From the NCBI RefSeq assembly GCF_009664835.1, contig NZ_CP045929.1:3286001-3350000 (forward strand): a stretch of 64,000 bases of DNA, given 5' to 3'. Below are positions 31,872 through 54,410 of this stretch, piece by piece. A program made the position numbers and the translations under genes. Within the stretch, counting starts at the first letter, position 1. Each line of letters opens with the position of its first letter. The notes under the pieces were generated by a model. The model had not been told where the DNA came from, made no database searches, and saw only the letters and a list, made by a program, of their open reading frames with translations. Origin of the DNA: Allosaccharopolyspora coralli (lineage in GTDB: Bacteria > Actinomycetota > Actinomycetes > Mycobacteriales > Pseudonocardiaceae).

Positions 31872-32594
31872 GTGAACCCAAGGTTGTCAGAATCCCGTAG
31901 TGCGATCCCGGAGCGGGTTCGTCAGCGCGTGGCGCCGGACGCGGCGGACATGGTCGAACAACTCACCGCGCGTCTCCGGCGCGATCCGGCGCTCGCCGTC
32001 GAGGACCCGGGTGCGAAACCCGCCGACCACGGCGCGGACCAGCAGTACCGGTGGCGGTCGCTGTGCCGGTTCCACGCGGCGCTGGCCACCGAGCAGGTGG
32101 TCACCGACGCCGCCGTTGCTCACGCGGGGCGGGAGGCCGCCGATGCGGTCTGGCTGGGCGCCAGCCTCGCCGACCTCAGTGCCGTCACCGGCAAGACACG
32201 GCAGGCCGCACGCAAGAAGTGGCCCGACCTCGGGTCCGTGTATCGGCGCCGGAAATGGCTGGCCAACCAGGTCGAGGCGGTGCACTACGCGGCCAGGCTC
32301 CTCGCCGACGCGGCCGAGCAGCTCACGCCCGCGAAAGGGGGTGCGGCGTACGAAGAGGCGATCGACAGGCTCGTGGACGCGTTACGCCGGAGTGAGCAGG
32401 CGTTCGGCGAGCAGGAACCGGCCGATGCGGCGGCACGATGGCGGGAGCTGGACGAACTCATCGACCGGCACGTGCGCACCGTTCTCGACCTGGCCGCGCC
32501 GGACCCGGCCGACGGCTCCGCCGACTTCGCCGCGCACGGCGCCACCGGCGTACTGACCTACTACGACATGGCCACCACATCCAAAGACGCGTGA
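31872..32594 (+). CDS. Hypothetical protein with helix-turn-helix-like segment
   Basis: The 240-residue, mostly helical and acidic protein belongs to no family I can name. A candidate DNA-binding helix pair is AVWLGASLADLSAVTGKTRQAARKKWPDLGSVYRRRKWL (about residues 92-130), where 'TGKTRQAARKKWP' looks like a recognition helix. The rest (YEEAIDRLVDALRRSEQAF and the end) is helical and could dimerise. The GTG start is itself one half-site of a GTGAACC repeat set, so the protein may repress its own gene by blocking translation and transcription start. The stop codon lies inside a 44-bp palindrome shared with another locus. Confidence 0.65.
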   Translation: MNPRLSESRSAIPERVRQRVAPDAADMVEQLTARLRRDPALAVEDPGAKPADHGADQQYRWRSLCRFHAALATEQVVTDAAVAHAGREAADAVWLGASLADLSAVTGKTRQAARKKWPDLGSVYRRRKWLANQVEAVHYAARLLADAAEQLTPAKGGAAYEEAIDRLVDALRRSEQAFGEQEPADAAARWRELDELIDRHVRTVLDLAAPDPADGSADFAAHGATGVLTYYDMATTSKDA

Positions 32595-32632
32595 GCCTTT
32601 TTGGTGGCTATAGCGACCAAAAAGGCTCACGC
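32589..32632. repeat. 44-bp palindrome, copy 1 (GCTATAGC core)
   Basis: GCGTGAGCCTTTTTGGT plus its exact complement flank gGCTATAGCg; a single G/G mismatch breaks perfect symmetry. It lies between convergent stops (32594 and 32642) and includes the TGA of the left gene, so it can act as a bidirectional terminator with T5/A5 runs in the stem. A second copy is at 53189-53232. Confidence 0.85.
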
Positions 32633-43962: not shown

Positions 43963-44006
43963 GCGGGGGTGGTCGAGCAACCCCCAGCTGTCCGACCACC
44001 CCCCGC
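43963..44006. terminator. GC-rich hairpin
   Basis: GCGGGGGTGGTCG pairs with CGACCACCCCCCGC, a 13-bp stem with one bulge, around an 18-nt loop. It follows the three hairpin repeats. The remaining ~270 bp up to the stress-protein gene hold no gene or motif that I recognise. Confidence 0.5.
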
Positions 44007-45740: not shown

Positions 45741-47438
45741 TCAGCTCAGCCCGACGACCTCTCCGTTCTCGTCGAGGTCGATGCGTTCGGCTGCCGGATG
45801 CGAACCGAGTCCCGGCATGGTTCGCATGTCCCCGCAGATCGCGTACACGAACCCGGCACCGACCGAGGCACGCACCTCGCGAACCGGCAGCGTCCAGCCC
45901 GTCGGTGCCCCCAGCAACGCCGGGTCGGAACTCAGCGACAGGTGCGTCTTGGCGATGCACACCGGCAGGTTCCCGAACCCGAGACGGGTGTACTCGTCGA
46001 GTGCGCGAGAGGCTGCCGGCTGGTACGTCACGTCCGAGGCACCGTAGACCTTCGTCGCGATGGTCTCGATCTTCGTACGGAGGTCGTCGCCGTCGTCGTA
46101 GAGCATCTCGAAACGACTCGGTTCGCGGGTGGCGGCCGCGACGGCGTCGGCGAGATCGAGAGCTCCTTTCCCGCCGTCGCTGAAATGTTTCGTCACGGCG
46201 ACGTGAGCTCCGGCTTCCTCTGCGACCCGGCGGATCGCGTCGTGCTCACTGGCGTGGTCGGTCGGGAAGGCGTTGATCGCGACCACGGGCGATACTCCGT
46301 GTACCCGGAGGTTGTCGATCTGCTTGCGCAGGTTGTCCGCTCCGGTCAGCACGTCCTCGGGGCTCTCGGCCACCATCCCGTCCGGCAGGTCTTTTCCCGC
46401 CACGACCTTGTACCGCCCGGAGTGTGCCTTCAGCGCGCGCACCGTCGCGACGAGCACCGCCGCGTCCGGGACGAGACCGGAGGCACGGCATTTGATGTTG
46501 AAGAACCGTTCCGCCCCCATGTCGGCACCGAATCCGGCCTCGGTGACGACGATGTCCGCACAGCGCAACGCGATCCGGTCGGCCACGATGGAGGAGTTGC
46601 CGTGTGCGATGTTGCCGAACGGTCCGGCGTGGACGAAGACCGGTGCGTTCTCCACCGTCTGCATCAAGTTGGGTTTGAGTGCCTCACGCAGCAACACCGC
46701 CATCGCCCCTGCCGCCTGCAGCTGTTCGGCGTTGACCGGTTGTCCGTCGGTGTCGTAGCCGACGACGATGCGCCCGAGCCTGCGCCGCAGGTCCGCGAGT
46801 GAGGTCGCCAGCGCCAGCACGGCCATGACCTCGCTGGCTGCGGTGATGTCGAAACCCGCCTGGCGCGGTGTTCCGTCCACGCGAGCGCCGAGGCCGGTGA
46901 CGATGTTGCGGAGTTCGCGGTCGTTGACGTCCATGACGCGACGCCACGTGATCCGCGCCGGGTCGATGCCCAGGGCGTTGCCGTGGTGGATGTGGTTGTC
47001 CACCATGGCGGCGAGCATGTTGTGGGCGGCGGTGACCGCGTGCATGTCGCCGGTGAGATGCAGATTCAGCGCCTCCATCGGTACGACCTGGCTGTACCCA
47101 CCGCCCGCGGCGCCACCCTTGATGCCGAACGTCGGTCCCATCGACGGTTGCCGGATCGCGATCGCCGCGCGGTGCCCGCGTTGCCGCAGTGCCTGCCCGA
47201 GGCCGACGGTCGTGGTGGTCTTTCCTTCGCCGAGCGGGGTCGGCGTGATCGCCGAGACCACCACGTACTTGCCGCGCGGCCGGTCGGCGAGCTCGTCCAT
47301 CGCGGACAGCGACACCTTCGCGACGTGCCGTCCGTAGGGCTCGAGCAGGTGTTCGTCGAGTCCGAGCTCGCGACCGACGTCCGTTAGCTGCGCGGGGATG
47401 CTCGCGCGGGAAATCTCCAGGTCGGAGGGAATGGTCAT
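45741..47438 (-). CDS. fhs: Formate-tetrahydrofolate ligase
   Basis: The 565-residue protein is full length for the family. It has the P-loop TPTPLGEGKTTT (residues 65-76), GIKGGAAGGGYSQVVPMEALNLHLTGD, HVTAAHNMLAA-type sequence, and the formyl phosphate region GFGADMGAERFFNIKCR. It interconverts formate + ATP + THF and 10-formyl-THF. In a demethylation setting it can run toward formate and ATP, conserving energy from the methyl group. ATG 47438 has GGAGGTCC just upstream and overlaps the metF stop by 4 bp. It is the last core gene of the one-carbon cluster, downstream of metF and the GcvT/DmdA-like gene, as in O-demethylation clusters (ligM-metF-ligH) of sphingomonads. Confidence 0.95.
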   Translation of the reverse strand: MTIPSDLEISRASIPAQLTDVGRELGLDEHLLEPYGRHVAKVSLSAMDELADRPRGKYVVVSAITPTPLGEGKTTTTVGLGQALRQRGHRAAIAIRQPSMGPTFGIKGGAAGGGYSQVVPMEALNLHLTGDMHAVTAAHNMLAAMVDNHIHHGNALGIDPARITWRRVMDVNDRELRNIVTGLGARVDGTPRQAGFDITAASEVMAVLALATSLADLRRRLGRIVVGYDTDGQPVNAEQLQAAGAMAVLLREALKPNLMQTVENAPVFVHAGPFGNIAHGNSSIVADRIALRCADIVVTEAGFGADMGAERFFNIKCRASGLVPDAAVLVATVRALKAHSGRYKVVAGKDLPDGMVAESPEDVLTGADNLRKQIDNLRVHGVSPVVAINAFPTDHASEHDAIRRVAEEAGAHVAVTKHFSDGGKGALDLADAVAAATREPSRFEMLYDDGDDLRTKIETIATKVYGASDVTYQPAASRALDEYTRLGFGNLPVCIAKTHLSLSSDPALLGAPTGWTLPVREVRASVGAGFVYAICGDMRTMPGLGSHPAAERIDLDENGEVVGLS

Positions 47439-48280
47439 GCCGGGACCTCCTCGATGCGCGCCGCGAGATCGTCGCGCCACCGAGCGGTGGTGGCGACCTC
47501 GTTGAAGGTGAACAGGTGCCAGCCGGCGACGTCGTACCAGGGCTCGAGCAGGTAGGGGGACAGCTGCTCGACCACGTCGTCGGCCGTGTAGCGGGACAGC
47601 AGTTTGCCGAGCCCGCCGCGTTGCTTGCGCAGGAACCGCATCGAGTCCCCGAGTCCGATCTTCAGCGAGATCCGCAGCAGTCTGGTCACGTCCACCGAGC
47701 CGGGAATGCCGATGTACACGGGCAGGTCGATGCCACGCCGCCGGACCGCGGTCAGCCAGTCGCCGATGGTCTGCGAGTCGTAACAGATCTGTGAGACGAC
47801 GTAGTCGGCGTGGACCGATTTGCGTTCCATCGCCTCGACCAGATCCTCGTCGGAGATCGCGGAGTGCCGCTCGGGGTAGCCGGTGATCCCGATGCGCGAC
47901 GGTCGCCGCCCGGAGTCCGTGATCGCCCGCAACAGCGCGAGTGCGTCCGGAAACGGTCCCGCCGGTGTGGGCCCGTCACCGGCGATCACGAACACCTCGC
48001 TGACCCCCGCGTCGTGGATCCTGTCGAGCAGTGACGACAGCTGGGACGTACCGACGACCTGCCGAGCCGCCAGATGCGGTACCGCGTGCATCCCACGAGC
48101 CGCGAGATCCTCGGCGACGTCCACTGTGGTCTCCGGACCGCGTGACGGCGACGAGGTCACCGTGACCGTGGTTCCGGTCGGCAGGGCGTCGACTCGGTCG
48201 AGCACCCCGTGGGTGGGCAGCACTTCGAAACGGGCTCTGCCGAGCAGGCTCCGAAGCTGCTGCGTGCTGGTCGCGTCCAT
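47435..48280 (-). CDS. metF: Methylenetetrahydrofolate reductase
   Basis: The 281-residue TIM-barrel flavoprotein of the MTHFR family has TVTVTSSPSRGPETTVDVAEDLAARGMHAVPHLAARQV, VSEVFVIAGDGPTPAG, GITGYPERH, DYVVSQICYDSQTIGDWL and LPVYIGIPGSVDVTRLL. In this cluster its likely job is oxidation of 5-methyl-THF, the product of methyl transfer from the substrate, to 5,10-methylene-THF. A methionine-biosynthetic role is the alternative. ATG 48280 starts the conserved region. It lies 16 bp after the GcvT-like gene and overlaps fhs by 4 bp, a tight operon. Confidence 0.88.
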   Translation of the reverse strand: MDATSTQQLRSLLGRARFEVLPTHGVLDRVDALPTGTTVTVTSSPSRGPETTVDVAEDLAARGMHAVPHLAARQVVGTSQLSSLLDRIHDAGVSEVFVIAGDGPTPAGPFPDALALLRAITDSGRRPSRIGITGYPERHSAISDEDLVEAMERKSVHADYVVSQICYDSQTIGDWLTAVRRRGIDLPVYIGIPGSVDVTRLLRISLKIGLGDSMRFLRKQRGGLGKLLSRYTADDVVEQLSPYLLEPWYDVAGWHLFTFNEVATTARWRDDLAARIEEVPA

Positions 48281-48296
48281 CCCACACCTGCCTGTG

Positions 48297-49499
48297 TCAC
48301 GCGCCGACGGTGCGCCGCTGCTGTGCCTTCGGGATGTCCTTGCTCGGGTCGTGGAAGGGTTTCCGGACGACCGTCGCGCGCTGCGGACCGTGCTGGGTCT
48401 CGATCCGCAGCTCCGTGTCGAGCTCCTGGTAGGCGATCGGCACCATGGCGTAGCCGATGTTGCGTTCGAGCCGCGGCGACCAGCACGCCGAGGTGACCTC
48501 ACCGATCCGCAGGCCGTGCGGGTCGTGCACCGGGAAAACGTCGATCATGGCGCCGTCGTTGAACGAGCCGACCCCGGGGCCGTCGATCTCCACACCGACC
48601 AGCTTGCGCGAGACGCCCTCTTCCTTGATGCGCTGCAACGCGGCTTTGCCGAGGAAGTCCGCGTCCTGGTCGAGGTCGACCATCCAGGTCGCTTCGAAGC
48701 CGTAACCCACCTCGAAGGGGTTGGTGTCGTAGGTGATGTCGCACCCCCACGACAGGATTCCGGCTTCGATGCGCCGAATGTGGCACGGTCCGATGACGTC
48801 CATGTCGTGGGCCCGGCCGGCTTCCCAGATCCTGTCCCAGAGCCGGACGCCGTTCTTGCTCGCGTCGTGCAGGTAGATCTCGTAGCCGAGCTCGGCGGTG
48901 TAGCCGGTGCGGGAGACCACGACGTCCATGTCGTCGAGTGTTCGGTCCACCGCGTAGTAGTACGGAACATCCATGATGGACTCCCCGAACAGGTCCACCA
49001 TCACGTCCCCGGAGCGTGGCCCCTGAATCTGGACCGGGGCGACGTCGGGAACCCGGATCTGCACGTTCATCCCCATGCTGTGCGCGAGTCCTTTGGCCCA
49101 CAGCAGCACGTCGCTGTCGGCGAGCGAGAGCCAGAAGTGGTTCTCGCCGAGCCGCAGGAGTACCGGGTCGTTGATGATCCCACCGTCCTCGGCCGTGATG
49201 AACACGTACTTGCACTGGCCGATGCGGCACTTGTTCAGGTCACGCGGCACGAGCATGTTCGTGAACTCGAACGCGTCCGGTCCGGTGATCTCCACCTGTC
49301 GCTCGACACCGACGTCCCAGAGAGTGACGCCGTTGAGCAGGTGCCAGTACTCGTGGACCGGATCTCCGTAGTGCCGGGGGTGGTAAGTGTGGTTGTACAC
49401 GCTGTAGAGCCCGACACCGTGGCGGCGCGAGGCGTAGAAGTACGGTGATTTGCCGATCCTCGGGTACTGCAGGACACCGGGCGCGGGATTGACGGTCAT
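48297..49499 (-). CDS. GcvT-family THF-dependent methyltransferase/demethylase (DmdA-like)
   Basis: The product has 400 residues. The GcvT fold is seen in VERQVEITGPDAFEFTNMLVPRDLNKCRIGQCKYVFITAEDGGIINDPV, SLADSDVLLWAKGLAHSMG, QIQGPRSGDVMVDLFG and SRTGYTAELGYEIYLHD. C-terminal barrel signatures are GVEIDGPGVGSFNDGAMIDVF and GEVTSACWSPRLERNIGYAMV. The 'ADSDVLLWAKGLA' and 'GQCKYV...GGIINDPV' blocks resemble DMSP demethylase DmdA more than the glycine-cleavage T protein. DmdA-type enzymes move a methyl group directly to THF, giving 5-methyl-THF, which fits the metF and fhs genes behind it. The substrate is not known. ATG 49499 has GAGGAG upstream. Confidence 0.85.
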   Translation of the reverse strand: MTVNPAPGVLQYPRIGKSPYFYASRRHGVGLYSVYNHTYHPRHYGDPVHEYWHLLNGVTLWDVGVERQVEITGPDAFEFTNMLVPRDLNKCRIGQCKYVFITAEDGGIINDPVLLRLGENHFWLSLADSDVLLWAKGLAHSMGMNVQIRVPDVAPVQIQGPRSGDVMVDLFGESIMDVPYYYAVDRTLDDMDVVVSRTGYTAELGYEIYLHDASKNGVRLWDRIWEAGRAHDMDVIGPCHIRRIEAGILSWGCDITYDTNPFEVGYGFEATWMVDLDQDADFLGKAALQRIKEEGVSRKLVGVEIDGPGVGSFNDGAMIDVFPVHDPHGLRIGEVTSACWSPRLERNIGYAMVPIAYQELDTELRIETQHGPQRATVVRKPFHDPSKDIPKAQQRRTVGA

Positions 49500-49600
49500 G
49501 GTGTGCTCCTCGGGAACGAGAAAAGGGTGTGCCGAGCCACCGGGTCCGGCGGATCCGGGTGCGATTGGGGTAACGGGGTGGATCGGACGGCGCTGTTGGT

Positions 49601-52108
49601 TCAACGCCGCATGCGGCTCATGTCTGGATCGAAGAACGGATCGGCGACGACGGTGGCCGCATGTCGCCGGTCGAAGTACGACACCCGCAGGGGAGTGCCC
49701 TCGCTGCTGTACTCGGCGGGAAGCCACGCGTAGGCGAGGCTCGCGTCGACGGTGTGGCCGTAGGCGGCGCTGGTGGTGAACCCCACCGCAGCGTCGTCGA
49801 CGAACACCGGCTCGTTTCCGGAGACGACCGTGCCGTCGTCGATCCGCAGGCAACGCAGGAGTTTGCGCGGGTCGGATTCGCGTCGGCGCAGGAGCGCGTC
49901 CCGGCCCACGAACTCGCCCTTGTCGGGTTTGACGGCGAATCCGAGTCCGGACTCGTCGGGATCGTGCACGCTCCACATGTCGGCTCCCCAGGCGCGGTAG
50001 CCCTTCTCTATCCGCAGGGCGTTGAACGCCCCGCGCCCGGCGGGAACGATCCCGTACTCCGCGCCGGCTTCGGCGAGCAGGTCCCACAGGCGCAGGCCGA
50101 ACTCGGCGCTGGTGTAGAGCTCCCAACCGAGCTCGCCCACATAGGACAGTCGGAGCGCGGTGACCGGCACTTCGCCGACGAAGAGCCGCCGGGCCCGGAA
50201 GAAGCGGAACGCCTCGTGCGAGACGTCGATGCTCGCCAACTCGGCGAGTACCTCCCTGGCGTGCGGTCCCCACAGGCCGATGCAACAGGTTCCGCCAGTG
50301 ATGTCGCGGACGAACGTGGTGTCGTCGGCATGGTCCTGCATCCAGGCGATGTCGCGTTGCCCGTTGCACCCGACCTGAAAGGTGTTTTCGGACAGACGGG
50401 CGACGGTGATGTGCGCTCGGACTCCGGCGTTCGGTTCGAGCATGAGAGTGTAAGTCACGTATCCGGGTGTGCGGTCGAGCTGGTTGGTCGTGAGTCGTTG
50501 CAGCAGGCCGAGTGCGCCCCGTCCGGAGACCTCGGCGCGAGCGAGCGAGCTCATGTCGTACATCGCGACGCCCTCGCGGGTCGCCTGCTGTTCCGCCGCG
50601 ACGATCGGGGACCAGTAACGCCCGGCCCAGTCACCAGGAGGGTGGATCGTTCTTTCGTCCACAAGAGACTTGTTCGTCTCGAACCAGTGCGGGCGCTCCC
50701 ATCCGTTGGCTTCGAGGAAGAACGCTTCGTGTTCCCGGTGGCGCACGTAGAACGGACTGGTGCGCAGCGGACGCGGGTGCTCGGGCGGCTGTTGCGGATG
50801 CACGATGTCATAGACCTCGCGGAAGTTCTGCGCGCTGCGTTCGGCCACGTACGAGGGGCCGTGCGCGAAGCCTTCGAACCGCCGGATGTCTCCGGACCGC
50901 AGGTCGATCGTGGGCTGCTCGCCCGTCATCCACTCGGCGACGGCCTCGCCGACACCGGCCGAGTGGGTGATCCAGACGGCTTCGGCGATCCAGAAGTTCG
51001 GGACCTCGCGGGAGAGCCCGAGTACCGGCGAGCCGTCGGGTGTGAACAGGAACAGGCCGTTCATACCCTCCGCGATCTCGCTGTCCTGCAGAAACGGCAG
51101 CAGTGTTCGGGCGTCCGACCAGGGCGTCTCGAAGTCTTCGGGGGTGAAGTCGTGTACCGAGGCCATGCCTTTCCAGCCGCCGCCGGACGAGGGAGCTTCG
51201 GCGCCGTCGCCGACAGCCGCGGTGCGTGTCAGGTCGCTGGCCCGGACCGGAATCGCGCGATGCTGGTAGGAACCGATGCCCACGCGGTCGTGGATCTGCC
51301 GGAAGTACATCGACCGGTCCTGGTGCCGCAGGATCGGTTGTGCGACTTCGGCAGCGTGGCCCGCCCATTCGGGCAGCGGCGTGGTGACCGCGTACTGGTG
51401 GGCAAGTGGCTGGACGGGAACGGACACCCCGGCCATCGCGCCGACGCTCGGACCCCAGATTCCCGCGCAGCACAGCACCCGGTCCACCTCGACGTCGCCA
51501 CGGGAGGTGTGGACGACGGAGATTCGTCCGCTGTCGAAGGAGAATCCGGTGACCTCGGTGTGGTCGGCGAACCGGGCTCCACGCCGCTCGGCCGCCGCGG
51601 CCATCGCCTCGGCTGCGCGCACGGGCTTGGCGATGCCGTCCGTGGGTACGTGCAGCCCACCGTGGATGAGCGCGGCGTCGATCTCGGGAATACGTTCCAG
51701 GACTTCCGAAGCGCCGAGCAGTTCGGCCTCGACACCCCATGCCTGGGCTTGGCCCAGCTTGCGGTGCAGTTCGTGCCAGCGTTCGGGGGTCGCGGCGACC
51801 TCGATCCCGCCGACCTGGTGGAAACAGTCGGCCTCGAAGCTCGTGAACCGCTCGACGGTGCGCGCGGCGAGCTGGGTCATGGTCTGGGAGGCGTTGGTCT
51901 GGAACACGAGGCCGGGTGCGTGCGCACTGGAGCCCCCGGTGGCGAACAGCGGTCCCTGCTCAAGGACGAGGACGTCGGTGAGGCCGCGTTCGGCGAGAGC
52001 GAGCGCGGCGCTGCATCCCACGATCCCGGCGCCGATGACGACGACCTCGGCGCGCGGTCCGAGGGTGCTCTGGAAGGTGGGGGCGGTGCCCGCCGCGGTG
52101 GATGTCAT
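49601..52108 (-). CDS. FAD-dependent dimethylglycine/sarcosine dehydrogenase-like protein
   Basis: The 835-residue, two-part protein has an N-terminal DAO-type FAD domain with VVVIGAGIVGCSAALALAERG (residues ~22-42). GGSSAHAPGLVFQ carries a His at the place where dimethylglycine dehydrogenases bind FAD covalently. The DAO part extends to about 380, followed by an FAO_M-like linker. A C-terminal GcvT pair (AEVSGRGALGLLQRLTTNQLD, LSYVGELGWELYTSAE) can catch the released formaldehyde unit on THF. It oxidatively N-demethylates a methylated amine such as dimethylglycine or sarcosine. ATG 52108 is preceded by an inverted repeat that looks like the GntR operator. The gene heads the cluster, 101 bp before the GcvT-like gene. 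Confidence 0.88.
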   Translation of the reverse strand: MTSTAAGTAPTFQSTLGPRAEVVVIGAGIVGCSAALALAERGLTDVLVLEQGPLFATGGSSAHAPGLVFQTNASQTMTQLAARTVERFTSFEADCFHQVGGIEVAATPERWHELHRKLGQAQAWGVEAELLGASEVLERIPEIDAALIHGGLHVPTDGIAKPVRAAEAMAAAAERRGARFADHTEVTGFSFDSGRISVVHTSRGDVEVDRVLCCAGIWGPSVGAMAGVSVPVQPLAHQYAVTTPLPEWAGHAAEVAQPILRHQDRSMYFRQIHDRVGIGSYQHRAIPVRASDLTRTAAVGDGAEAPSSGGGWKGMASVHDFTPEDFETPWSDARTLLPFLQDSEIAEGMNGLFLFTPDGSPVLGLSREVPNFWIAEAVWITHSAGVGEAVAEWMTGEQPTIDLRSGDIRRFEGFAHGPSYVAERSAQNFREVYDIVHPQQPPEHPRPLRTSPFYVRHREHEAFFLEANGWERPHWFETNKSLVDERTIHPPGDWAGRYWSPIVAAEQQATREGVAMYDMSSLARAEVSGRGALGLLQRLTTNQLDRTPGYVTYTLMLEPNAGVRAHITVARLSENTFQVGCNGQRDIAWMQDHADDTTFVRDITGGTCCIGLWGPHAREVLAELASIDVSHEAFRFFRARRLFVGEVPVTALRLSYVGELGWELYTSAEFGLRLWDLLAEAGAEYGIVPAGRGAFNALRIEKGYRAWGADMWSVHDPDESGLGFAVKPDKGEFVGRDALLRRRESDPRKLLRCLRIDDGTVVSGNEPVFVDDAAVGFTTSAAYGHTVDASLAYAWLPAEYSSEGTPLRVSYFDRRHAATVVADPFFDPDMSRMRR

Positions 52109-52117
52109 GATCGCCAC

Positions 52118-52157
52118 CTGTTGCGTATAAAACAACCAACTTCGTATAACGCAACAG
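52118..52157 (-). promoter_or_regulatory. Inverted repeat before the demethylation operon
   Basis: CTGTTGCGTATA at 52118 and TATAACGCAACAG at 52145-52157 are inverted arms about 15 bp apart. Inner TTCGTATAACGCAA is also nearly symmetric. They sit 10-50 bp before the ATG of the flavoprotein gene. The TA-rich core contrasts with the GC-rich surroundings. It is probably the promoter/operator bound by the adjacent GntR-FCD regulator. Confidence 0.6.
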
Positions 52158-52494
52158 TGCGCCCGGATCTCGGGACGCGTCAAGAGCGGCAGAGAGTGGA
52201 TTTTCGCCGGTGATCACGAGCGCCCTCGAGCGAGAAACGGAGGCGAAAACACGCAGTGATCAGCGGGTTGGGCTCGTAGCCCGGACGAGCTAGTTCCGGC
52301 GGTGGAACGGGCCAATGACAGCGCGCGAGCAGTGTGTCAACTGTGAATTCTCGGTTCCGGTACGGCCACGACGGTGGGCGGAATACCGGGCGCGCGCCCG
52401 GGGGCCAATTCTGTCCGTGCCCGACCGCGATCATCGAGATCGCAGCGGCCGGCGACCGTCACCGACCGCAACGTGCCGTTGCCGAGTCCAGCGC
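52158..52494. other. Intergenic stretch without gene
   Basis: No convincing gene. TTTTCGCC (about 52200) and GGCGAAAA (about 52242) could form a stem, and two TGATCA boxes lie nearby; otherwise nothing is recognised. Confidence 0.4.
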
Positions 52495-53139
52495 TCAGAG
52501 GGCCGCGCGGATGGCGGCTTCGAAGTGGCGGACGTGGGCCACGGCGAGCCGGTCGGCCTTGCCCGCGTCGCCCTGGACGACGGCGTCGAGCAGCGCAGAG
52601 TGTTCGGCGACGTGCTCTGATACGTCGCTGAGGCGCTCGAAGAACAGGCACCAGATCCGCAGCGCCAGGTTGTAGTGCTCGTCGAGCATCGCCCGCAGGT
52701 AGGGGTTGTGAGTGCACCGGTACAACGTGCGGTGGACTCGCGCGTCGAGGTCCATGACCGGAGCCCGAGCATTCCCGGAGCGATCCACGAGAGCGCGCAA
52801 CTCGGCGAGCTCCGCACGCTCGGCGGCAGTCGACCGCTCCGCCGCGCGGCGCGCGCCGTGACCTTCCAGTTGCAGGCGCACGTCCGCGATCAAGCCGTGG
52901 TCGGTGATGTTCACCTCGGTGACGAAGCTGCCGCGCCGGGGGTAGATCGCGATCATGGATTCCCGCTCCAGCCGCTTCACCGCCTCGCGGAACGGGGTGC
53001 GCCCCACGTCGAGTTCGGCGGTGAGTACGTCCTCGCGCACGGGGGACCCCGGAGTCAGCTCCAGCGCGACGATGCGGTCCCGAAGTGCCAGGTAGGCGCG
53101 TTCTGCCTGCGACCCGGCTCCGTTGACCTGCTCTCTCAT
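52495..53139 (-). CDS. GntR-family regulator, FCD (FadR-type) domain
   Basis: The 214-residue protein has a winged helix (AERAYLALRDRIVALELTPGSPVREDVLTAELDVGRTPFREAVKRLERESMIAIYPRRGSFV, about 12-72) followed by an all-helical FCD domain. The FCD domain carries the metal-site residues D (MDLDARVHRTLYRCTHN) and H (EHSALLDAV; AVAHVRHFEAA). Such regulators are released from DNA by small carboxylates. The gene directly precedes the one-carbon/demethylase operon on the same strand, so it probably senses the substrate or an intermediate. ATG 53139 is chosen because the longer frame reads through a dispersed 44-bp palindrome. Confidence 0.88.
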   Translation of the reverse strand: MREQVNGAGSQAERAYLALRDRIVALELTPGSPVREDVLTAELDVGRTPFREAVKRLERESMIAIYPRRGSFVTEVNITDHGLIADVRLQLEGHGARRAAERSTAAERAELAELRALVDRSGNARAPVMDLDARVHRTLYRCTHNPYLRAMLDEHYNLALRIWCLFFERLSDVSEHVAEHSALLDAVVQGDAGKADRLAVAHVRHFEAAIRAAL

Positions 53140-53188: not shown

Positions 53189-53232
53189 GCGTGAGTCTTT
53201 TTGGTGGCTATAGCAACCAAAAAGACTCACGC
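53189..53232. repeat. 44-bp palindrome, copy 2 (GCTATAGC core)
   Basis: The same element as at 32589-32632, but the arms read GCGTGAGTCTTTTTGGT and its complement. The C-to-T change in one arm is matched by G-to-A in the other. The core is GGCTATAGCA. It stands between the divergent gntR and iclR genes, so it is not a convergent terminator there. Confidence 0.85.
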
Positions 53233-53618
53233 CCGGACTGGGCCGAGTCCACTGTGGCTGTACATGAGAATGTCGCGGTGGCACAACGTTGAACCGTCCC
53301 GCGTGGACTCCGGGGGGCCGCCTTGTCGAGCCGTGCGACCGGCGGCCTTGGCCTGGTGTGTGTCGTCGCGGAGAGACTCGTCGGCAGGGATGCCGCGCTC
53401 GAAACCCTGCTTGGTCACGCACCGGTGATCGTGTGACAGACTGGACCGACCCCGGAGTACCGGCCCCGCTGCGCGCGTTCGTTGTCGGAGTCGTGCCGAC
53501 GCGCGTCGACCGGAGCCATCTCCGACGGGTGGCTGTGCCGGAGGTAGTGTTGCGCAGGGCGGAACGTGCCTTATCCTGTGCACAGTCGGAAATTGCTGTC
53601 GACCAGGTCGGTGCCGTC
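53233..53618. other. Intergenic stretch between gntR and iclR
   Basis: No gene is supported here; open frames are short and arginine/proline-rich. The iclR promoter must lie in the last ~100 bp; TTATCCTGTGCACAG around 53571-53585 (contains TGTGCACA) is a possible operator. Confidence 0.4.
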
Positions 53619-54410
53619 GTGACCAACGAGGAACAGGCACGAGGGCGCGGTTCCGGAGCGCTCGTGCAGTCGGTGGACCGGGCCATCACCGTGCTCGAAC
53701 TGCTCGCCCGCCACGGTGAAGTGGGGATCACCGACATAGCCGCGGAGCTCGGTGTGCACAAGTCCACCATCTCGCGGCTCGTGAGCGTGCTGGAGGCACG
53801 CGGGCTCGTCGAGCAGATCAGCGAACGCGGCAAGTACGCGATCGGGTTCGGCATGCTCCGGCTCGCCGGGGCGGCGGCCGACCGCATGGATCTGCCCAAA
53901 CTCGGACACCCGTACTGCGAGTCGCTGGCCACCGAGCTCGGCGAAACCGTCAACATCGCCATCCGCGACGACGAAGTGGCGATCAACATCAGTCAGGCCA
54001 GGGGCACGGCGGCGGTCACCGCCCACAACTGGGTCGGGCAGCGCACGCCGCTGCACGCCACGTCGAGCGGCAAGGTGCTGCTGGCCCACGCTCCCGAATC
54101 GGACCAGGATGCTCTGCTGGCCGAGCCGCTGGAGCAGTACACCGTGCGGACCGTCGTCGACCCCGACGAACTCCGCTCGGACTTCGCACTGATCGTCCGT
54201 GACGGCTATGCCACCTCCTACGAGGAACTCGAACTCGGCCTCAACGCGGCCGCCGTCGCCGTTCACGACCAGGACGGCGCGGTCGTCGCCGCGCTCAGTG
54301 CCTCCGGCCCGTCGTACCGGTTCTCGCGACGGCGGATGCGCGACGTCGTGGGTGCGATGACCGGAGCGGCGAAAGACCTCTCGGCGCAGCTGGGGTACAT
54401 GGAGGTGTGA
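53619..54410 (+). CDS. IclR-family transcriptional regulator
   Basis: The 263-residue protein has an N-terminal winged helix (SVDRAITVLELLARHGEVGITDIAAELGVHKSTISRLVSVLEARGLVEQ) and a C-terminal GAF-like effector domain (YCESLATELGETVNIAIRDDEVAINISQ, TPLHATSSGKVLLAH, VRDGYATSYEELELGLNAAAVAVHDQDGAVVAALSASGPSYRFS), complete for the family. GTG 53619 is used because it starts the ordinary IclR N-terminus; the longer frame is not protein-like. IclR proteins regulate acetate, aromatic or amine catabolism. Here the divergent neighbour is the GntR-controlled demethylation operon, so a joint role is possible but unproven. Confidence 0.88.
   Translation: MTNEEQARGRGSGALVQSVDRAITVLELLARHGEVGITDIAAELGVHKSTISRLVSVLEARGLVEQISERGKYAIGFGMLRLAGAAADRMDLPKLGHPYCESLATELGETVNIAIRDDEVAINISQARGTAAVTAHNWVGQRTPLHATSSGKVLLAHAPESDQDALLAEPLEQYTVRTVVDPDELRSDFALIVRDGYATSYEELELGLNAAAVAVHDQDGAVVAALSASGPSYRFSRRRMRDVVGAMTGAAKDLSAQLGYMEV

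Follow-up and report, generated by a model that had tools for sequence, protein, structure and literature searches.

The subject of this work is a cluster of five genes in a 64,000-nucleotide stretch of the Allosaccharopolyspora coralli chromosome (positions 3286001–3350000 of a one-contig genome of 4.83 Mb, 99.8% complete; hereafter, the window). All five genes lie on the minus strand, in the order GntR2, DMGO2, DmdAL, MetF2, Fhs. We propose, with a fair degree of confidence, that they constitute an oxygen-free catabolic operon for glycine betaine, in which DmdAL would act as a glycine betaine:tetrahydrofolate (THF) methyltransferase, DMGO2 would yield sarcosine, and MetF2 and Fhs would turn the methyl group into formate with a gain of ATP. 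The first methyl group of glycine betaine is probably handed to folate, and not removed with oxygen.

The proposed pathway consists of six steps: (i) DmdAL would convert glycine betaine and THF to dimethylglycine and 5-methyl-THF in a redox-neutral reaction, (ii) DMGO2, a member of a known family, would convert dimethylglycine to sarcosine, (iii) sarcosine oxidase—whose genes adjoin the operon in close relatives and also form part of this genome's other betaine locus—would yield glycine, (iv) MetF2 would convert 5-methyl-THF to methylene-THF, (v) a putative FolD would convert methylene-THF to formyl-THF, and (vi) Fhs would run from formyl-THF to formate and ATP.

A five-gene cluster and its recurrence

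The original prediction for this stretch was a THF-linked demethylation cluster made up of a DmdA-like methyltransferase, an N-demethylating flavoprotein, MetF, Fhs and a GntR regulator. All five genes were found, in the predicted order and extent (Table 1). The metF2 stop and fhs start codons overlap (ATGA, 47438–47435) and 16 nt separate dmdAL from metF2; overlap and spacing make co-transcription likely. No Rfam match was obtained between window positions 44000 and 55000 at E values of up to 1, and the idea of a riboswitch was dropped.

Table 1. Features of the proposed operon, in window coordinates.
Feature	Position	Strand	Basis
GntR2, GntR/FCD-family regulator, 214 aa	52495..53139	-	Pfam FCD (4.3e-21) and GntR
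Operator-like inverted repeat CTGTTGCGT-N22-ACGCAACAG, directly upstream of DMGO2	52118..52157	none	pattern search
DMGO2, N,N-dimethylglycine oxidase-type flavoprotein, 835 aa	49601..52108	-	FAD domain and GcvT-type folate domain
DmdAL, DmdA-type THF methyltransferase, 400 aa; proposed glycine betaine:THF methyltransferase	48297..49499	-	profile, fold, tree
MetF2, methylenetetrahydrofolate reductase-family protein, 281 aa, SYK-6 type; proposed 5-methyl-THF to methylene-THF	47435..48280	-	PF02219, 50 bits
Fhs, formate-THF ligase, 565 aa; proposed direction formate + ATP	45741..47438	-	NCBIfam NF010030, 821.4 bits

The neighbours of DmdAL were surveyed at 80 loci, the best 80 of at least 592 confirmed stretches among the matches listed. 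Gene calls in the neighbourhoods and in the canonical betaine locus described below come from a crude GC3 caller, and neighbours were labelled by BLAST to the genes of this genome, of which most had been checked by NCBIfam; the counts come from tblastn at thresholds that we set. By these counts, DmdAL lies near a dimethylglycine (DMG) oxidase or dehydrogenase at 49 loci. MetF accompanies it at 37 loci and Fhs at 33, sarcosine oxidase is present at 16, ETF-beta and a GbdR-like regulator each at 10, OpuA-type and BHMT-like genes each at 3, and GbcA at none. Twenty further loci of relatives gave DMG genes at 16, MetF at 19, Fhs at 17, ETF-beta at 12 and sarcosine oxidase (Sox) genes at 5. As a yardstick of chance, two DMGO genes in 4.83 Mb would place a DMG gene in about 1% of random 21 kb stretches, a figure that is an estimate and not a control run. 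At the 12 nearest loci (10 from Pseudonocardiaceae, two from Nocardiopsidaceae), DMG and Sox genes are each found in 10. Loci L049 and L054 miss the DMG threshold, the former with a partial hit of 252 bits. Because the same gene set returns in related and distant genomes, the cluster is not a product of chance. It is co-conserved across loci, Actinopolyspora genomes included, a point on which the original prediction could have failed.

Three architectures are seen. Firstly, in the nearest Pseudonocardiaceae, sox genes are divergent from GntR-DMGO2-DmdAL-MetF2-Fhs. Secondly, other Pseudonocardiaceae and other Actinomycetota carry DmdAL-MetF2-Fhs-DMG dehydrogenase-ETF. Thirdly, in Halomonadaceae DmdAL, with MetF2 in eight of ten loci, lies beside DMG dehydrogenase, Fhs and a regulator; a GbdR-like gene is present at all ten, one representative of which scored 440 bits to Pseudomonas GbdR (cut-off 480). 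At locus L061 an OpuAC-type binding protein is encoded directly upstream of DmdAL, preceded by a permease that exceeds the choline-ABC cut-off (367.5 versus 363 bits), with a BHMT-like gene nearby. It is these neighbours—DMG enzymes, sarcosine oxidase and GbdR-like regulators—that point to glycine betaine as the substrate. The original prediction had left the substrate open, as a betaine, a stachydrine-like or a dimethylsulfoniopropionate (DMSP)-like compound; genomic context indicates glycine betaine instead, and the clade has no DMSP genes in its vicinity.

A survey of 297 Pseudonocardiaceae genomes (including Saccharopolyspora, Actinopolyspora and Amycolatopsis; E <= 1e-60) found DmdAL in 94, at 65% identity or more in 92 of these and at 44–45% in the other two. 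DmdAL also occurs in Halomonadaceae and other phyla.

DmdAL and its folate partners

DmdAL misses the cut-offs of these NCBIfam models: the DmdA equivalog NF009133 (338.6 bits, cut-off 410), the GcvT models NF001567 (177.7, cut-off 300) and TIGR00528 (141.1, cut-off 235.85), and the LigM/DesA models (38.0 and 50.1, cut-offs 580 and 800). Its AlphaFold model (pLDDT 91.6) was compared with solved structures. The nearest solved structure is Pelagibacter DmdA (3tfh; Z 48.6, root-mean-square deviation 1.4 over 369 residues, 36% identity), followed by mammalian dimethylglycine dehydrogenase (DMGDH) and GcvT (Z about 43–44), with LigM much more distant (Z about 28). The Foldseek 'pdb' and VIA lists both rank DmdA first; Tdm (9q59), which is not among the structure matches listed, was compared with DmdAL by sequence alone.

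In a tree of 66 of 119 aligned sequences, with long outgroup branches and a bootstrap that is not fully settled, DmdA-type proteins split from GcvT (a single row on a long branch), DMGO, SoxA and Tdm at 100/99. DmdAL falls in a five-row Pseudonocardiaceae clade (100/100) adjoining two Nocardiopsidaceae rows (92/93). The four true DmdA proteins, from Pelagibacter and roseobacters, form a 100/99 clade within a separate 25-row branch, with DmdAL outside it. Owing to the long outgroup branches and the unsettled bootstrap, we treat the nesting of DmdA inside the 25-row branch as a lead. The GcvT-like protein of the original prediction thus proves distinct from true glycine-cleavage T proteins: it fails the GcvT cut-offs and stands apart in the tree from the genome's own GcvT, a separate GcvT-like gene lying at 3406112. 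On profile, fold and tree, DmdAL is neither GcvT nor true DmdA. A bolder proposal, which we hold tentatively and at somewhat less than even odds, is that DmdAL founds a corrinoid-free, oxygen-independent glycine betaine:THF methyltransferase family spanning several phyla, and that DmdA arose inside this family, not directly from GcvT.

Folate-site residues are kept in DmdAL: the equivalents of Pelagibacter E204 and Y206 are E207 and Y209. The relevant part of PMC7487153 gives E178 and Y180 as folate residues of DmdA, which by numbering offset would correspond to E204 and Y206. The aspartate that matches DMGO Asp552 (Pelagibacter D108) is likewise kept, as D111. At nine other positions (Y39, H40, R42, Y44, Y180, Y181, H240, R242 and W272), the same residue is shared by 60 or 61 of the 61 clade members, and all four DmdA proteins carry a different one; these nine residues may line the pocket. 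W171, called key for DMSP in the same part of PMC7487153, would by the same offset be Pelagibacter Trp197. The corresponding residue is Tyr200 in DmdAL and is also Tyr in three roseobacter DmdA proteins, so this position was dropped as a DMSP signature. In a further clade, represented by six loci, Cys and Asn stand where DmdAL has Tyr35 and Asp111. Most of these loci have sox genes and a SoxB-like single flavoprotein as neighbours, and OpuA or BHMT-like genes are sometimes present.

The nearest solved relative of MetF2 is the methylenetetrahydrofolate reductase (MTHFR) of Sphingobium SYK-6, by profile (194 bits, versus 70 for the next) and by fold (Z 29.5 at 30% identity, versus 25.3). The SYK-6 enzyme reportedly oxidises 5-methyl-THF, with LigM as its partner (PMC12585457). 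Apart from MetF2, the genome has no PF02219 match, although the FAD-independent mycobacterial type of MTHFR may escape PF02219 and no search for that type was made. Methionine synthesis may depend on MetF2, on DmdAL, or on an FAD-independent MTHFR invisible to Pfam. Fhs is the only PF01268 match in the genome and exceeds its NCBIfam cut-off of 652 bits.

DMGO2 carries DAO, FAO_M, GCV_T and GCV_T_C domains in one chain (Pfam). It matches the Arthrobacter N,N-dimethylglycine oxidase 1pj5 at 876 bits over residues 21–834, versus 366–373 bits for mammalian DMGDH, and is therefore of the oxidase type. His225 and Tyr259, which we take to be active-site residues of DMGO, are kept in the DMGO2 alignment. 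The DMGDH-like flavoprotein of the original prediction is thus an N-demethylating flavoprotein as described, but an oxidase-type DMGO, and its supposed supply of methylene-THF is in doubt, for a reason given below.

Weighing glycine betaine against other roles

No betaine oxygenase lies between 38 and 62 kb of the window, the part that was examined, in keeping with the original prediction; a GbcA-like betaine locus is, however, present elsewhere on the same chromosome. This canonical locus (near 2.955–2.972 Mb, about 370 kb from the window) contains a Rieske-type GbcA-like gene, DMGO1, sox, glyA, sda and purU. Genes for S-(hydroxymethyl)mycothiol dehydrogenase (670.6 bits, cut-off 512.9), serine hydroxymethyltransferase, SoxB, L-serine ammonia-lyase and PurU exceed their NCBIfam cut-offs, while the ferredoxin-reductase type gene, DMGO1 and a SoxA piece clipped by the locus edge (993 versus 1164) fall below theirs; its regulator, GntR1, has no NCBIfam match. 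The best NCBIfam match of the Rieske protein is GbcA at 224 bits; since this is far under the cut-off of 670, the name rests on context. A mycothiol dehydrogenase at the oxygenase locus fits the release of formaldehyde at that locus; the DmdAL operon has MetF2 and Fhs instead.

A different picture is seen in Actinopolyspora. In six genomes of this genus, SoxB, SoxA, GntR2, DMGO2, DmdAL, MetF2 and Fhs are encoded within 20 kb. At 1e-20, the search for the GbcA family gave nothing in five of these genomes and a single weak match (134 bits) in the other. No stand-alone BHMT was found in the six, the BHMT model matching only in MetH-sized frames of 1050–1244 aa. DmdAL is thus the only candidate found for the conversion of betaine to dimethylglycine in these genomes, corrinoid methyltransferases not having been searched for.

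Several observations weigh against an operon for glycine betaine. The window's cluster contains no recognisable transporter gene. Since this genome holds both DmdAL and a GbcA-like locus, the operon could serve another betaine. Across the 297 family genomes, GbcA is found in 173 (E <= 1e-60): 58 genomes have both genes, 36 only DmdAL, 115 only GbcA and 88 neither, with no association (Fisher p 0.45), and the idea that the two are strict alternatives is unsupported. The two Nocardiopsidaceae loci are without MetF and Fhs, and no DMG gene passes the threshold at 17 of 31 far-binned loci (30 far loci plus L062, which at 68% identity was binned there through a split alignment). Plasmids of Phaeobacter and Loktanella carry DmdAL homologues (52% identity) next to genes for acyl-CoA synthetase and enoyl-CoA hydratase; because this context is DMSP-like, the wider DmdAL family probably has more than one substrate. 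In the canonical locus, the strict form of the operator pattern has no match. Finally, the catalytic Asp552 of DMGO is His566 in DMGO2 (codon CAC, 50411–50413).

The loss of Asp552 puts the methylene-THF branch of DMGO2 in doubt. The title of PDB entry 3gsi describes a D552A mutant structure of DMGO, and others must therefore have held this residue important. Among 68 DMG-type hits at 67 related loci, the position is Asp in 66, Glu in two (L106 and L107) and His in none; His566 occurs in this genome only, and was dropped as a clade trait. The oxidase half of DMGO2 may work without methylene transfer, or the His566 base may be an error.

The strongest alternative, unlikely in our judgement, keeps the chemistry and changes the substrate: another quaternary ammonium or sulfonium compound (stachydrine, beta-alanine betaine, gamma-butyrobetaine or DMSP) would be demethylated, with DMGO2 acting on the resulting N-methyl amino acid. 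Besides the GbcA-like locus and the plasmid homologues above, it draws on marine locus L106, where a DmdAL homologue has a TauD-type gene as its neighbour; the top NCBIfam matches of this gene, under cut-off, are trimethylaminoethylphosphonate and gamma-butyrobetaine dioxygenases. Glycine betaine is favoured instead by the sarcosine oxidase genes that adjoin the operon in close relatives, by other loci that have a GbdR-like regulator or an OpuA-type transporter, and by the resemblance of DMGO2, with its retained H225 and Y259, to true DMGO. For DMSP in particular, DmdAL does not reach the NCBIfam DmdA cut-off, and no DmdB/DmdD-type homologue above 200 bits lies within 10 kb at the window or the DmdAL clade. 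Among the 111 placed loci, many of them shortened, the exceptions are five roseobacter plasmid loci, with dmdB and dmdD at L144 and a dmdB-type gene at L146 and L139–L141. A DMSP pathway was rejected for the window's cluster for lack of dmdB and dmdD nearby.

A further point against another substrate is an operator-like site common to the operon and the GbcA locus. The repeat upstream of DMGO2 has the core GTTGCG-N24-CGCAAC (52120–52155), and a GTTGCG-N-CGCAAC repeat directly precedes DMGO2 in 10 of the 11 relatives examined, counting DMGO2 hits with 64% identity or more; two of these relatives appear to be one genome. This repeat is a still looser form than the genome-wide pattern given next, and it has 28 occurrences across the 100 loci (1.85 Mb), of which 10 are at the listed DMGO2 genes. 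The genome-wide pattern was loosened after its strict version failed in the canonical locus; with up to 3 mismatches it has two sites genome-wide, one at the operon and one at 2956940 in the canonical locus, between the ferredoxin-reductase and mycothiol-dehydrogenase genes. In 10 simulated genomes searched with this loosened pattern, no site was found. A common operator at both loci would suggest a common effector. GntR2 and GntR1 are 44.8% identical over 203 aa, and we infer that GntR2 binds the GTTGCG...CGCAAC repeat and, through it, controls the operon.

In a second alternative, DmdAL would serve the oxidation of dimethylglycine or sarcosine as an accessory folate enzyme (for instance, a formaldehyde or iminium trap) and would not be a quaternary-ammonium demethylase. 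DmdAL is often near GcvT-domain oxidases, and a separate folate protein could step in for a DMGO2 without Asp552. Against this, the loss was seen in one genome only, and DmdAL is kept beside DMG enzymes with an acidic residue there in all 68 cases. DmdAL is, moreover, DmdA-like, and DmdA yields methyl-THF, not methylene-THF, according to the pertinent part of PMC5395565; MetF, needed for methyl-THF, accompanies DmdAL at 37 of the 80 loci. We regard this role as improbable. A biosynthetic one-carbon supply, in which formate would be assimilated by Fhs and MetF2 would provide the 5-methyl-THF for methionine, is very improbable: it accords with MetF2 and Fhs being the sole matches of their Pfam families in the genome, but the nearest relative of MetF2 is, by a wide margin, an enzyme reported as oxidative (PMC12585457), and a catabolic DMGO opens the operon.

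Some further features of the region and its relatives are recorded here. A divergent IclR-type regulator gene (53289–54410; best NCBIfam match BhcR, 172 bits, cut-off 350) adjoins the cluster, and IclR-type genes are also found near the clusters of several relatives. A near-perfect, terminator-like palindrome around CTTTTTGGTGGCTATAGCNACCAAAAAG occurs at window positions 32591–32630 and 53191–53230; with up to 2 mismatches allowed, the genome has 101 such sites (reversed control, 0), one of them between GbcA and GntR1 of the canonical locus. On roseobacter plasmids (L139, L140 and L141), a 52% homologue with an Lrp regulator, OsmC, enoyl-CoA hydratase and acyl-CoA synthetase is possibly an unrecognised module for the demethylation of a DMSP analogue. 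On plasmid pHMA411 of Haloarcula marismortui, a 39% homologue lies near genes for an MTHFR and a Rieske oxygenase and one for a long FAD oxidoreductase; this haloarchaeal cluster is betaine-like.

Relation to known systems and implications

The proposed operon resembles several known systems, each in part. With DmdA, DmdAL shares its fold, the equivalents of E204, Y206 and D108, and, presumably, a chemistry in which an onium carboxylate passes a methyl group to THF without net redox change; it differs in its separate clade, its score under the NCBIfam cut-off, its nine clade-fixed residues and its lack of a dmdB/dmdD context. Arthrobacter globiformis reportedly carries a dimethylglycine/sarcosine gene cluster, said to have been described by Meskys and colleagues in 2001. 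DMGO2 is a full-length relative of the Arthrobacter DMGO, and sox genes adjoin in relatives; here, unlike in that system, a DmdA-type gene stands beside DMGO2 (in the canonical locus, GbcA stands beside DMGO1), and Asp552 is replaced.

In SYK-6, ligM, metF and ligH lie side by side. The likeness to ligM-metF-ligH noted in the original prediction holds for the module, in that a THF methyltransferase, an MTHFR of SYK-6 type and a formate-THF ligase are adjacent in both. It does not extend to the methyltransferase, LigM being far from DmdAL (38 bits against a cut-off of 580; Z about 28), and no aromatic catabolism genes were recognised in the cluster.

GbcAB requires O2 and NADH and releases the methyl group as formaldehyde. 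It would share its net step, glycine betaine to dimethylglycine, with DmdAL, although the protein families are unrelated. For aerobic organisms, the pertinent parts of the literature name, for the first demethylation of betaine, the oxygenase GbcAB (PMC3691474) or the homocysteine methyltransferase BHMT/Bmt (PMC12366255). In the relevant part of Sun et al. 2011 (PMC3160333), an aminomethyltransferase of SAR11, encoded near glycine betaine transporter genes (SAR11_1303/SAR11_1304/opuA), is postulated to take part in the metabolism of glycine betaine. That system is likened to ours by description, and its role is postulated, with no activity shown in that part of the paper. In the open-licence full-text literature, as far as the passages retrieved from it go, no report of a tested betaine:THF methyltransferase of the DmdAL kind was found. 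The 'undescribed pathway' of the original prediction therefore narrows: the DMGO and sarcosine oxidase steps are known and a betaine role had already been postulated, so that novelty would be confined to the first step, a DmdA-type THF methyltransferase in a betaine pathway.

Glycine betaine is one of the commonest osmolytes. If the folate route is true, the methyl group would be saved as 5-methyl-THF, which could feed methionine directly, ATP could be gained via Fhs, and the route could work at low oxygen. It would also assign a function to proteins that currently carry the annotation glycine cleavage T or aminomethyltransferase, account for a possible use of betaine by halophiles that lack GbcA, such as Actinopolyspora, and offer a plausible ancestor for the marine DMSP demethylase.

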